Below are positions 16,371 to 31,061 of a DNA stretch of 64,000 nt, in pieces. A model generated the notes under the pieces. It made no database searches. It was not told where the DNA came from and was given only the letters and a program-made list of their open reading frames with translations. The stretch is from assembly GCF_017872555.1 (NCBI RefSeq), contig NZ_JAEDOX010000001.1:930001-994000 (forward strand), read 5' to 3'. This stretch comes from Ruegeria sp. HKCCSA071 (lineage in GTDB: Bacteria; Pseudomonadota; Alphaproteobacteria; Rhodobacterales; Rhodobacteraceae). Position 1 is the stretch's first letter. Each line of letters starts with the position of its first letter. The translations under genes and the position numbers were made by a program.

Positions 16371-16407
16371 AAAAAACCCCAGACGCGGCCAAGCGAAAGG
16401 GGTCTTT
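16371..16407 (-). terminator. Leader terminator between SAM-II riboswitch and metZ
   Basis: On the metZ strand GACCCC and GGGGTT pair around an 18-nt loop that itself can form CGC/GCG. The stem ends in a run of six T. It follows the riboswitch core by about 10 nt and precedes the metZ start by about 30 nt, so it could act as a transcription attenuator. Confidence 0.6.
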
Positions 16408-16415
16408 CATCCTGA

Positions 16416-16467
16416 CCTTTTAGCGGTGTTGTTTAGCGTGGCCCGCAATCCGGTAACAAATCGCCAC
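16416..16467 (-). promoter_or_regulatory. SAM-II riboswitch upstream of metZ
   Basis: The metZ-strand sequence shows the SAM-II layout. P1 is GTGGC (16467-16463) paired with GCCAC (16442-16438). The loop holds GATTT and ACCGGATTGC. The tail contains GCTAAAAGG, in which GCGG of the loop can pair with CCGC to form the pseudoknot. These conserved stretches match the SAM-II class I know from alphaproteobacterial met genes, where SAM binding hides the 3' purine-rich Shine-Dalgarno. Recognition is by eye, not by covariance model. Confidence 0.9.
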
Positions 16468-16600
16468 GTAGTTTCAGGATCGCAATACGCCTCGGGCGGT
16501 TCGCGGTCAAGCCCGGCCTGCGCTTTGGTCACGCTTTCGTAAGCGGTACTTGCCGAACCGGCAGAAACCCGCATGATCCCTGTCAACATCAGGAGAACAC

Positions 16601-27833: not shown

Positions 27834-28439
27834 ATGACAGCCAAAAAAGACATCAACCCATTTCTGAAACAGGCGTTGGAGCTTGGCCCGCCGCTGGCCT
27901 TCTTCTTCATCTACCTGCGCTTGCGTGATGACAGCTTTCTGATCGGTGGCACCGAATATTCCGGCTTTATCATCGCGACGATTATCTTCGTCCCCCTGAT
28001 GCTGGGGGCAATGGGTATCCTGTGGTACCTCACCGGCCAGCTTAGCCGGATGCAGATTTTCACGGCCTTCATGGTTATTTTCTTCGGCAGCCTGACCGCA
28101 TGGTTCAATGACGAGCGGTTTTTCAAGATGAAAACCACGCTTGTCTATGGCCTGTTCGCCCTGATCCTTGGCATCGGGTTGCTGCAAAAGAAATCTTATC
28201 TGGCCTACGTATTGGATGAATTGCTGCCTATGAAGCACGAAGGCTGGATGATTCTGACACGCCGCCTTTGCGCCTGTTTCGCTGTTCTGGCCGCGGCAAA
28301 CGAGTTTGTCTGGCGCACCATGTCGACCGACCTTTGGGTCAAGATCGAGACCTTCGGATTTCCCATTGCGCTGATGGCCTTCCTGATGCTGCAATTCAGC
28401 ATCCTGCAACGCTATATGGACGACCCGGAACAGAAATAG
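27834..28439 (+). CDS. yciB: Inner membrane-spanning protein YciB / septation protein IspZ
   Basis: 201 residues with five or six helices. Family motifs are ELGPPLAFFFIY at the start, FGSLTAWFNDERFFKMKTTL in the middle and ANEFVWRTMSTDLWVKIETF near the end. YciB/IspZ proteins act in cell envelope maintenance and septation. The start at ATG 27834 has AGCAGGA upstream. Probably cotranscribed with the DMT gene before it. Confidence 0.94.
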   Translation: MTAKKDINPFLKQALELGPPLAFFFIYLRLRDDSFLIGGTEYSGFIIATIIFVPLMLGAMGILWYLTGQLSRMQIFTAFMVIFFGSLTAWFNDERFFKMKTTLVYGLFALILGIGLLQKKSYLAYVLDELLPMKHEGWMILTRRLCACFAVLAAANEFVWRTMSTDLWVKIETFGFPIALMAFLMLQFSILQRYMDDPEQK

Positions 28440-28553
28440 CTGTTCTGACGTCGCCATACCTGCAAAATCAAACAAAATTCTTGGCTTAGCCGCCGAGCTA
28501 TGGGAAGTTGTGTCACCACCCACACTCACACCTTGCCCAAGATCGGTGTATAC

Positions 28554-29222
28554 ATGACGGCCTTTCCCACCAGCGGCTTCCTTTCCGAAGCCTCCGACGG
28601 GCTTAGAGAGATGCTTTCCGCGCAGGCGACCGACATCTCGCTGGCTCAAGGAGAAACCCTTTTCGAACAAGGCGATGAAGGGGATTCGCTCTATGCCATT
28701 CTGGCAGGCACGCTTGAAGTGTCCTTTCTGGCGATGAGCGGTCGAAAGCTGACGCTGACGCTGATGCGCCCAGGTGAAGTTTTTGGCGAGATTGCGCTGT
28801 TTGACAACGGCCCGCGCACGGCAACCATTGCGGCGGCCGAGCCATCGCGCGTCCTGCGTGTGCGTCGCAATGACGTCATGAACCAGATCAGAAAACAGCC
28901 TGATCTTGCCGTGGATCTGATCCGATTGGCCGGGCTGCGGATGCGATGGATGGGGTTGCAGCTGAACGAGCAGGTCTTTTTGCCCATGCCCATTCGGCTG
29001 GCCCGAAAGCTGCTGCATCTGTCGGAATTGCAGGACGACCCGACGCAGCGCATCACCCTGTCGCAGAGCGAACTTGCCGAATTTGTCGGGGCCACGCGCG
29101 AGGCCGTTTCCAAGACGATCTCGATCTGGAAACGCGACAATATTGTCGAATCCTCGCGCGGCGGCTTGTTGATTCAGGATTTCGACGCATTGCGGGAACT
29201 GGCCGATTCCGAACTTATCTGA
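28554..29222 (+). CDS. Crp/Fnr family transcriptional regulator
   Basis: 222 residues. The N-terminal cyclic nucleotide-binding-like beta-roll (about 10-120) contains GDEGDSLYAILAGTLEVS and RPGEVFGEIALFDNGPRTA, close to the cAMP phosphate cassette. The C-terminal winged helix has LSQSELAEFVGATREAVSK. Its recognition helix R-E-x-x-S-K corresponds to the R-E-T-V-G-R contacts of E. coli CRP. No Fnr-type N-terminal cysteines are seen. An ATG 18 codons earlier (28500) is an alternative start; neither has a good Shine-Dalgarno. A perfect Crp-type site lies 6 bp after its stop. Confidence 0.9.
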   Translation: MTAFPTSGFLSEASDGLREMLSAQATDISLAQGETLFEQGDEGDSLYAILAGTLEVSFLAMSGRKLTLTLMRPGEVFGEIALFDNGPRTATIAAAEPSRVLRVRRNDVMNQIRKQPDLAVDLIRLAGLRMRWMGLQLNEQVFLPMPIRLARKLLHLSELQDDPTQRITLSQSELAEFVGATREAVSKTISIWKRDNIVESSRGGLLIQDFDALRELADSELI

Positions 29223-29227
29223 ACCAG

Positions 29228-29243
29228 TGTGATCTGGTTCACA
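29228..29243. promoter_or_regulatory. Perfect Crp-type operator TGTGA-N6-TCACA
   Basis: The site TGTGA-TCTGGT-TCACA is palindromic in its half sites and matches the CRP consensus exactly. It lies 6 bp after the stop of the Crp/Fnr-like gene. It is centred about 60 bp before the predicted start of the small transcript that follows, the class I activator spacing. It also overlaps a 7-bp hairpin GAACCAG/CTGGTTC (29221-29240). Confidence 0.7.
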
Positions 29244-29294
29244 TACGAAGGGGCCGGTGTTGACCTAAGGTGAAGTTGTTACCGTAGGAGGTCA

Positions 29295-29378
29295 GAGAAT
29301 CATCCCCGATATCTGTCCACTGATCTCTCCCTGTATCTGAGCCATACGCAATTTCAGCGTATGGCTCATTTTCTTTCT
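29295..29378 (+). ncRNA. Candidate Crp-controlled small RNA (about 80 nt)
   Basis: No ORF is present. A -35-like TTGACC (29260-29265) is followed after 17 bp by a weak -10 (CGTAGG), giving a start near 29295. The predicted transcript has a pyrimidine-rich single-stranded part containing ATCTCTCCCTG, able to pair with ribosome-binding sites. It ends in an 11-bp terminator hairpin (29339-29367) followed by ATTTTCTTTCT. This is a prediction from architecture alone. A simple terminator of the Crp gene is the main alternative. Confidence 0.45.
29339..29378 (+). terminator. Intrinsic terminator
   Basis: Perfect 11-bp stem GAGCCATACGC / GCGTATGGCTC with a 7-nt loop, followed by ATTTTCTTTCT on the + strand. 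It ends transcription from the regulator gene and/or the candidate small RNA. Confidence 0.85.
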
Positions 29379-29407
29379 GCATGCCTCTTCAGGTGTTCAG
29401 GCAATGA

Positions 29408-29436
29408 AAAAGGCCGGGCGCTTGTCCCGGCCTTTT
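29408..29436 (-). terminator. Intrinsic terminator of the Deg protease gene
   Basis: AAAAGGCCGGG / CCCGGCCTTTT, 11-bp stem with a 7-nt loop, A-rich before and T-rich after on both strands. It lies 4 bp beyond the stop of the Deg protease gene, so it mainly serves the - strand. Confidence 0.88.
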
Positions 29437-29440
29437 CAAA

Positions 29441-30934
29441 TCACTCTTCCAGGCTTAGCGCCACAAATCGCGGCTCGCCCCCCCTGCGGACCAAAAGCAG
29501 CAGGGATTTGCGCCCAGCCTCTCGCGATTGGTCCATCCTGGCTTCCAGATCCGCGATGCTTTCCACCTTTTGCTGACCCGCTTCGGTGATCAGGTCACCC
29601 GCGCGCAACCCTTTCGCGTAAGCCTCAGACGCTTCGTCGACATTCGAAATCACCAGACCCTGGGCATCTGCGTCCAATCCCATATCCGCGCGCAGCGTAT
29701 CTGTGAGCGGGGAGATGGTCAGCCCGAGAATATCGGCGTTTTCTTCGACCGGAGCCTCCTGCGTTTCTTCTTCGTCATCGTCTTTGCTTTCTGCGTCCTC
29801 ACGGCGTCCCAGCGTGACCAGAATTGTTTGCGTGCCGCCATCACGGTGTACAATGACCCGGACGGCTTTGCCGACTTCTGTTTCACCGACCTGACGGACC
29901 AGACCACGGGTGTCTTCAACTTCGACACCGTCAAAGCTGATGATCACGTCGCCTGCTTTCAGACCGGCCTCCTGGGCGGGGCCTTCTGGGACATCGCTGA
30001 TCAGCGCGCCGCCGGGTTTCTCCAGCCCCATGGCCTCGGCCATGTCTTCGGTCACGTCCTGAATGCGGACACCCAGCCAGCCGCGCCGGGTTTCGCCAAA
30101 TTCGCGCAGCTGATCGACGACCTTCACCACCACGTTTGATGCCATCGAAAAGCCGATGCCGATCGAGCCACCGTTGGGTGACAGGATGGCTGTGTTCACG
30201 CCGATCACTTCGCCGTCCATATTGAACAATGGACCGCCCGAGTTGCCCCGGTTGATCGCCGCATCTGTCTGGATGTAATCGTCATATGATCCGCTGAGCG
30301 CCCGGTTGCGGGCCGATACGATACCAGCGGATACAGAAAAGCCCTGGCCCAGCGGATTGCCCATGGCAATCACCCAGTCCCCCACACGCGCCACGTCGCT
30401 GTCGCCAAATTGCACGTATTTCAAGGGGCCGGACGCTTCGACCTTGAGCAGTGCAATATCGGTCTTCTCATCGGTTCCGATGACTTTGGCCACCAGTTCT
30501 TTTTTGGGCTGCCCGTCGCCGGGGAAGAATTCCACAAGGATTTCATCAGCTTCCGCAATGACGTGATTGTTGGTGACAATGAAGCCATCTTCAGAGATCA
30601 CAAAACCCGACCCAAGGGCGTTGCTGCGTCGGGGCGGGCTGTTGTCATTGCCGCCATTGCGATCCTGAAACTCGCGAAAGAAATCCTCGAACGGAGACCC
30701 CTCGGGCACGATACCCTGTGGGCCTGTCTGACCTTCGATCAGGGTGCTTGTGGTGATGTTCACCACGGCCGGGCTGATCTTTTCCGCCAAGGGCGCCAGG
30801 CTTTCGCCTCTGGCCTGGGCGGAAACCGACTGCGCCAGCACAAGCAGTGTACCGGCAAAGGCCAGCCACAACAGCCGCATCCAAACACTCACGTCGTCCC
30901 ACCGGACGGATAAACTGCGCGCTTTCGCCTGCAC
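29441..30934 (-). CDS. degP: Do/DegP-family periplasmic serine endoprotease
   Basis: 497-residue quality-control protease. An N-terminal membrane/signal segment (about 20-40, ending SVSAQA) precedes the trypsin-like domain. Its complete triad is His in VTNNHVIAEAD, Asp in EKTDIALLK and Ser in INRGNSGGPLF. Two PDZ domains follow, about 270-360 and 400-495, joined by an acidic linker with EDAESKDDDEEETQ. I chose GTG 30934 because AAGGAG lies 7 nt upstream; the ATG at 30880 would still leave a signal peptide. It is the last gene of the run hflK-hflC-DUF2065-degP, a common alphaproteobacterial arrangement for membrane protein quality control. Confidence 0.95.
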   Translation of the reverse strand: MQAKARSLSVRWDDVSVWMRLLWLAFAGTLLVLAQSVSAQARGESLAPLAEKISPAVVNITTSTLIEGQTGPQGIVPEGSPFEDFFREFQDRNGGNDNSPPRRSNALGSGFVISEDGFIVTNNHVIAEADEILVEFFPGDGQPKKELVAKVIGTDEKTDIALLKVEASGPLKYVQFGDSDVARVGDWVIAMGNPLGQGFSVSAGIVSARNRALSGSYDDYIQTDAAINRGNSGGPLFNMDGEVIGVNTAILSPNGGSIGIGFSMASNVVVKVVDQLREFGETRRGWLGVRIQDVTEDMAEAMGLEKPGGALISDVPEGPAQEAGLKAGDVIISFDGVEVEDTRGLVRQVGETEVGKAVRVIVHRDGGTQTILVTLGRREDAESKDDDEEETQEAPVEENADILGLTISPLTDTLRADMGLDADAQGLVISNVDEASEAYAKGLRAGDLITEAGQQKVESIADLEARMDQSREAGRKSLLLLVRRGGEPRFVALSLEE

Positions 30935-31061
30935 TTGAGCTCTCCTTGTCGACAATCTTGCCAAGGCCTGTTTCGGCCTTTCTTAGTTTCCAATGTAGTC
31001 AGTTTAACCCGGTGAGCAACTCGGGATCGCAGGGAAATCACCCGCACGTGAAACCGCCCCG

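Follow-up and report, generated by a model that had tools for sequence, protein, structure and literature searches.

In the 4.1-Mb genome of this Ruegeria strain, a gene for a Crp-like regulator is followed by a Crp operator, a non-coding stretch, a terminator hairpin, a second hairpin and a convergent protease gene. This order raises the question whether the regulator drives the expression of a small RNA directly behind its own gene. Ruegeria and its roseobacter relatives serve as models of marine carbon degradation, and the function of only few of their small RNAs is understood. In this study, the locus was analyzed within a window of 64,000 nt (the whole stretch of DNA considered here) and compared with homologous loci. 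A previous sequence-only reading had proposed that the regulator drives a trailing small RNA; conservation of site and hairpin behind orthologous regulators supports this link, whereas the promoter anatomy proposed with it, i.e. class I activation and a start near 29295, was not supported. With a probability of roughly 0.68, we consider the locus to be a small-RNA gene transcribed from a separate Crp-dependent promoter, located in tandem behind the regulator gene whose product most likely controls it, with a class II start at 29277/29278 and a non-coding RNA of about 98 nt whose C-rich loop probably pairs with targets. The features are listed in Table 1.

Table 1. Features of the regulator and small-RNA locus, with positions in the window.
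Feature	Position	Strand	Basis and remarks
Crp-like regulator gene	28554..29222	+	222 aa from ATG 28554; PF00027, PF13545
Crp operator TGTGA-N6-TCACA (TGTGATCTGGTTCACA)	29228..29243	+	Centre 29235.5; perfect in 48/49 Ruegeria-clade loci
-10 hexamer TAAGGT (predicted)	29266..29271	+	30.5 nt from Crp centre; TAnnnT footprint of the clade
Predicted small RNA, about 98 nt	29278..29375	+	Start 29277 or 29278; GTTACCG start at fixed operator distance; fold; model R2
8-bp stem, 5′ arm GAGGTCAG	29288..29295	+	Covariation, both-side changes in 5/8 pairs
Invariant loop stretch ATCATCCCCGATATCTGTCC	29299..29318	+	Identical in 43/43 aligned rows
8-bp stem, 3′ arm CTGATCTC	29320..29327	+	Covariation
Intrinsic terminator hairpin, followed by TTTTCTTTCT (T-rich tail)	29338..29368	+	Covariation in 6/11 pairs
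Second hairpin GGCCGGGC...GTCCCGGCC with A and T runs	29404..29439		Between small RNA and convergent gene; probably the terminator of the convergent gene
Convergent gene, trypsin-like protease with PDZ domains	29441..30964	-	Domain match

The first gene had been read as encoding a Crp/Fnr protein with the recognition helix R-E-A-V-S-K, and this was confirmed by domain matches above cut-off (PF00027, 82.5 bits; PF13545, 57.8 bits) and by the motif TREAVSK. The reading frame is open from 28500; the ATG at 28554 was favored as start codon because relatives align from the second residue of a query beginning at 28551. For comparison, the best 80 of 386 relatives found were fetched, the nearest ones coming from Ruegeria species. 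The extended helix motif ATREAVSK is shared without change by 86 of 88 distinct relatives and agrees with the CRP-like pattern R-E-x-x-x-[RK], which is derived from the contacts made by CRP. A phosphate-binding cassette of the type GE...R[TS]A is present, with F77, G78, E79, R88, T89 and A90 invariant in 37 of 37 sequences. Among solved proteins, the closest sequence is CRP of Mycobacterium tuberculosis, and the predicted fold (mean pLDDT 85.2, pTM 0.60) matches GlxR, MtbCRP, Clr and E. coli CRP. These nearest solved relatives share the cyclic-nucleotide cassette and the CRP-type helix, but the identity in the listed fold matches is 22–31%. Also, the score for the CRP equivalog model PRK11753 of NCBIfam reached 63.8 bits vs a cut-off of 266, so the protein is CRP-like and not CRP itself. 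As judged from sequence and structure model, it is a member of the Crp/Fnr regulators of CRP type. The genome encodes 17 class III nucleotide cyclase domains, pointing to extensive cyclic-nucleotide signaling and making a cyclic nucleotide a plausible ligand of the regulator. Inspection of 13 of the 19 PF13545 matches revealed a single further helix of this kind, TAREVVSR (R-E-x-x-S-R) in the paralogue L173, so that another protein could read the operator, too. CrpK of Rhodobacter sphaeroides was considered as a counterpart and set aside because it shares FnrL-type sites according to the available part of PMC4263372.

The perfect Crp operator reported for this locus is indeed present, starting 5 bp (not 6 bp) after the stop codon TGA at 29220–29222. 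It is the only match with at most one mismatch in the window, where 1.56 would be expected by chance. The genome contains six perfect sites in 4.1 Mb, so the operator is weak evidence as long as a single genome is considered. With up to one mismatch, 72 genomic sites were found vs 37 for the reversed control, a modest excess which alone shows no regulon; the surroundings of the other five perfect sites were viewed by eye. A chance match was ruled out by conservation rather than by these one-genome counts. In the Ruegeria clade (48 loci plus the window, nominally one per species), all 49 loci carry the site 2–37 nt past the stop codon of the regulator gene, and it is perfect in 48 of them, with one base changed in L020; among random 60-base windows of these loci, 0.7% contain a perfect site. 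A further 40 loci comprised 32 from the set of 80 relatives and eight from a search of family genomes, with four repeating contigs omitted. Here, a Crp-like site according to a looser pattern is located within 240 nt of the stop codon in 38 loci (exceptions L055 and L067), compared with 5.6% of random 270-base windows, and sites are perfect in 23 of the 32 loci from the relative set. Thus, the operator adjoins the regulator gene in 87 of the 89 loci examined. In L118 and L122, the operator downstream of the regulator reads TGTAA-N6-TTACA, and the helix ATREAVSK is unchanged. In the window genome, the Crp site is overlapped by a perfect 7-bp inverted repeat, GAACCAG-TGTGAT-CTGGTTC (29221–29240), which is not kept in those relatives whose downstream sequences were read.

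The distance from the stop codon to the operator varies freely between loci. The distance from the Crp centre to the first RNA base (G of GTTACC) is nearly fixed: it is 40.5–43.5 nt in 56 of 81 loci and exactly 42.5 nt in 45, the remainder consisting of 23 loci lacking one of the two marks and two with a spurious match. A footprint from 44 distinct sequences shows the operator followed by TAC/GAC, about 17 weakly conserved bases, T-A...T and the start GTTACCG, with no conserved -35 element. The motif TAnnnT is found 29.5 nt from the Crp centre in 40 of the 49 Ruegeria-clade loci and one base further (30.5 nt) in the window; in the 38 more distant loci having a site, it is enriched at no position. 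A classical class II operator is centred at -41.5. With the hexamer at -12 to -7, the operator lies at -41.5 and therefore at the class II place, covering the position of a -35 element and accompanied by a -10 element in the Ruegeria clade. On the basis of these sequence features, the promoter is predicted to be of class II, with the Crp centre at about -41.5/-42.5 and the start near 29277/29278. The -35/-10 pair assumed before was not recovered, as a consensus scan of 28400–29500 found no sigma-70 pair.

For analysis of the RNA itself, a first alignment (A1) contained 52 distinct sequences, i.e. the 56 loci with the usual spacing minus the identical L028, L029, L037 and L052. In A1 and the covariance model R1 the divergent loops were out of register, and both were superseded by alignment A2 and model R2. 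A2 comprises 43 Ruegeria-clade rows; L045, L046, L047, L049, L050, L051, L056, L060 and L081 were left out, and all nine match R2. For L007 and L049, the ends of the terminator were placed manually. Both-side changes were observed in 11 of the 19 pairs formed by the 8-bp stem and the 11-bp terminator, and 99.4% of the cells are paired. None of 500 shuffles reached any of five covariation measures, and slid controls fell to 33–55% paired. The 11-bp terminator noted previously was confirmed, and the T-rich tail past it is compatible with binding of Hfq or another chaperone. The loop is rich in C and U, in agreement with the pyrimidine-rich loop described before; the length of the non-coding segment, given as about 80 nt, should be about 98 nt. 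Its invariant stretch of 20 bases exceeds the length that many pairing seeds need. Ahead of the terminator, 40 of the 43 aligned sequences have no ATG, GTG or TTG.

Eight representatives were folded from the predicted start, and each folded better than all of its 200 shuffles (z -5.7 for the window sequence). In the window fold, AUCCCC (29302–29307) is exposed on a 3-bp inner helix, and in the other five Ruegeria-clade representatives it is exposed by an inner helix of 3–4 bp, small differences aside. If the window sequence is extended upstream before folding, its minimum-energy structure is built from other pairs, which would either favor the start at 29277/29278 or argue against a single stable fold. 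Promoter footprint, terminator and absence of start codons are the sequence features of an independent non-coding transcript, and the invariant stretch with its exposed AUCCCC has those of a conserved pairing region. As judged from this comparison, the small-RNA gene is genuine and conserved, and its Crp-type promoter is conserved, too.

Model R2 detects one good copy in the genome (113.5 bits); the next matches score 20.2 bits (the palindromic terminator on the other strand), 16.0 and 15.7 bits. A position-blind search of 394 family genomes, taken irrespective of whether they have the regulator, yielded 16 genomes with a match at E ≤ 0.01. In 14 of the 16, the match follows a regulator orthologue on the same strand at a distance of up to about 450 nt. 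The matches in L123 and L124 (25.8 bits) are not beside the regulator and were taken as chance. In more distant or divergent loci, R2 locates the RNA in 22 of 35 at E ≤ 0.001. No Rfam 15 model matched at its gathering score at the RNA locus or across 17 homologous loci; the best sub-threshold small RNA overlapping on the same strand was ar35 (12.8 vs 45 bits). An account of a regulator-operator-RNA unit was not found in the titles and abstract beginnings of the open-licence literature. For R. pomeroyi, 99 small RNAs including 30 trans RNAs were catalogued by Rivers et al. 2016 (PMC4809877, as far as its available part shows), and the Ruegeria RNA may be one of these 30.

According to the proposed mechanism, the active regulator, probably in its cyclic-nucleotide-bound form, would bind TGTGATCTGGTTCACA centred about 41.5–42.5 nt upstream of the start, replace the -35 element as a class II activator and recruit the polymerase to TAAGGT. 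Transcription would then proceed from 29277/29278 to the terminator hairpin and yield the non-coding RNA, which would display the C-rich loop on its 8-bp stem. The loop probably pairs with G-rich stretches near the ribosome-binding sites of target mRNAs, thereby causing repression. A search of the genome for the 20-base complement with up to three mismatches returned, apart from the locus itself, a single match, which is antisense to a coding frame. The 10-base complement occurs at 45 places in two genomes (the window genome and a related one), and the 30 read as loci are mostly intragenic and share no gene start by eye. Scanning 48 loci around the gene for duplexes brought up no convincing place either. 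The loop may also have a protein-binding role.

Several other explanations of the locus were weighed. The start near 29295 goes back to class I activation, with TACCGT (29280–29285), probably the hexamer taken for the -10 element in the sequence-only reading, and a start near 29292–29295 for an RNA about 80 nt long. TACCGT does fit TAnnnT, and 42 of the 49 Ruegeria-clade loci have it at a distance of 44.5 nt from the Crp centre, but this conservation is explained by its being part of the conserved RNA start. It is disfavored as a -10 element because transcription beginning 6–8 bases later would start within the covarying 8-bp stem, in its 5′ arm. Also, the operator would come to lie at about -56 to -59 and not at -61.5 as is usual for class I, and a conserved -35 element is missing. 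We consider class I activation very unlikely. That the sequence is a 3′-untranslated part of the regulator mRNA, freed by processing and without a promoter of its own, would agree with its tandem position behind the regulator and a shared terminator. It is highly improbable, as operator, spacing and -10 footprint would be left unexplained. Equally, a minus-strand gene converges on this interval (Table 1), which might be a mere terminator region between convergent genes with operator and loop lacking any function for an RNA gene; the second covarying stem, the 20-nt invariant stretch and the nearly fixed operator spacing make this hardly credible.

A different concern is the role of the adjacent regulator. 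The RNA might be made while the operator mediates repression or is occupied mainly by a different Crp/Fnr paralogue; the neighboring gene product would then not be the activator. We regard this as rather unlikely: an operator at -41.5/-42.5 without a conserved -35 element is typical of activation, and the site accompanies the gene of this very regulator in nearly all loci (87 of 89). In favor of it, the helix TAREVVSR of the paralogue has to be taken into account, and the known Crp-controlled small RNAs described in the available part of PMC8672173 include the repressed Spot 42 and VcdRP. Activation by the adjacent regulator from a class II promoter is still the preferred reading.

In nine loci encoding eight distinct proteins, namely L059, L071, L072, L073, L074 (= L125), L076, L079 and L128, the Crp-like site after the regulator is followed by a gene of about 50 codons belonging to one small-protein family. 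Its members have the motif W-[VLM]-x6-F-R-x-[AT]-Q near their end. A profile built with five of the eight proteins as seeds recovered the remaining ones (L071, L073 and L079) at E values of 8e-8 or better. Three members showed no Pfam or NCBIfam match, and with one member as query there was no credible match elsewhere in the window genome (best E 0.27). In L074 and L128, the small-protein gene is followed by a GC-rich stem whose loop is rich in C, and by a GAG[CT]CA terminator; the loop of L074 contains CCATCCCAACTGTCC, which is close to CATCCC...CTGTCC of Ruegeria. L072 and L076 have a terminator with a similar GCCATG core and no such stem was seen; this terminator type is absent from L059, L071, L073 and L079. 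In 25 of the 38 distant loci, which are related and not independent, CATCCC begins 24–140 bases past the start of the site, compared with 3.9% of random 116-base windows. For the short stem-loops, homology would be based on position, motif and terminator.

From these observations we tentatively propose, at somewhat below even odds, that the most conserved output of the regulator is the transcript behind its own gene, the content of which changed within a single group of bacteria. In Ruegeria and Phaeobacter relatives it would be a stand-alone RNA, and elsewhere the mRNA of a small protein of about 50 amino acids, the 3′ part of which in some cases contains a similar C-rich stem-loop and terminator. 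If true, this would be a natural series in which the 3′ end of an mRNA and an independent small RNA turn into each other under one conserved operator. The relatives with a small-protein gene in the same slot offer a series for studying how either kind of transcript, small RNA or small-protein mRNA, can give rise to the other. The branch of the regulator tree that holds the small-protein loci is weakly supported (81/23), so either RNA or small protein may have come first. The tree labels were assigned by simple patterns; L041 is labeled "none" solely since its terminator begins with AAGCC, yet it is an RNA locus of A2. In L080, a stem GAGGTC...GACCTC with a C-rich loop was observed by eye within about 200 bases past the regulator stop codon, directly upstream of an RBS-like sequence and an ATG; this stem-loop may be part of a 5′-untranslated region.

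The genes cyaR and spf are not known to be adjacent to crp, whereas the Ruegeria RNA is located behind the regulator gene. CyaR is an enterobacterial small RNA whose promoter is directly controlled and activated by Crp (available part of PMC8672173); RNAs of this type resemble the Ruegeria RNA, for which Crp control is predicted, and differ from it also in that the latter has no Rfam match. The same part of that source describes VcdRP of Vibrio cholerae and SgrS/SgrT as dual-function RNAs combining a small protein with a base-pairing segment, VcdRP being Crp-controlled and repressed by CRP. The small-protein form in some relatives may likewise be dual-function on one Crp-controlled transcript. 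The Ruegeria RNA has no protein part, and the likeness is one of layout, irrespective of any kinship between the small proteins. In Sinorhizobium meliloti, the small RNA AbcR1 is encoded beside the gene of its activating regulator LsrB and acts with anti-Shine-Dalgarno motifs on mRNAs of transport proteins, as stated in the available part of PMC8844928. The Ruegeria RNA is similarly an alphaproteobacterial, intergenic small RNA beside the gene of its presumed activator. Its C-rich loop suggests the same RBS-directed pairing as used by AbcR1 and NfeR1 of Sinorhizobium (same part of PMC8844928). In contrast, LsrB is of LysR type, while the Ruegeria regulator is of Crp type with a tandem class II Crp site, and no AbcR model of Rfam matched at the RNA locus.

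Judged by these comparisons, the locus appears to encode a regulator-adjacent small RNA under Crp-type control, and its unusual aspect would be the exchange between RNA and small protein among relatives. Present as a single copy, with 20 invariant nucleotides and linked to a regulator of cyclic-nucleotide type in 49 loci, the RNA would provide a direct and testable post-transcriptional output of such signaling in Ruegeria and related roseobacters. Elsewhere in the window, a SAM_alpha riboswitch was detected at 16400–16477 on the minus strand (57.3 bits).
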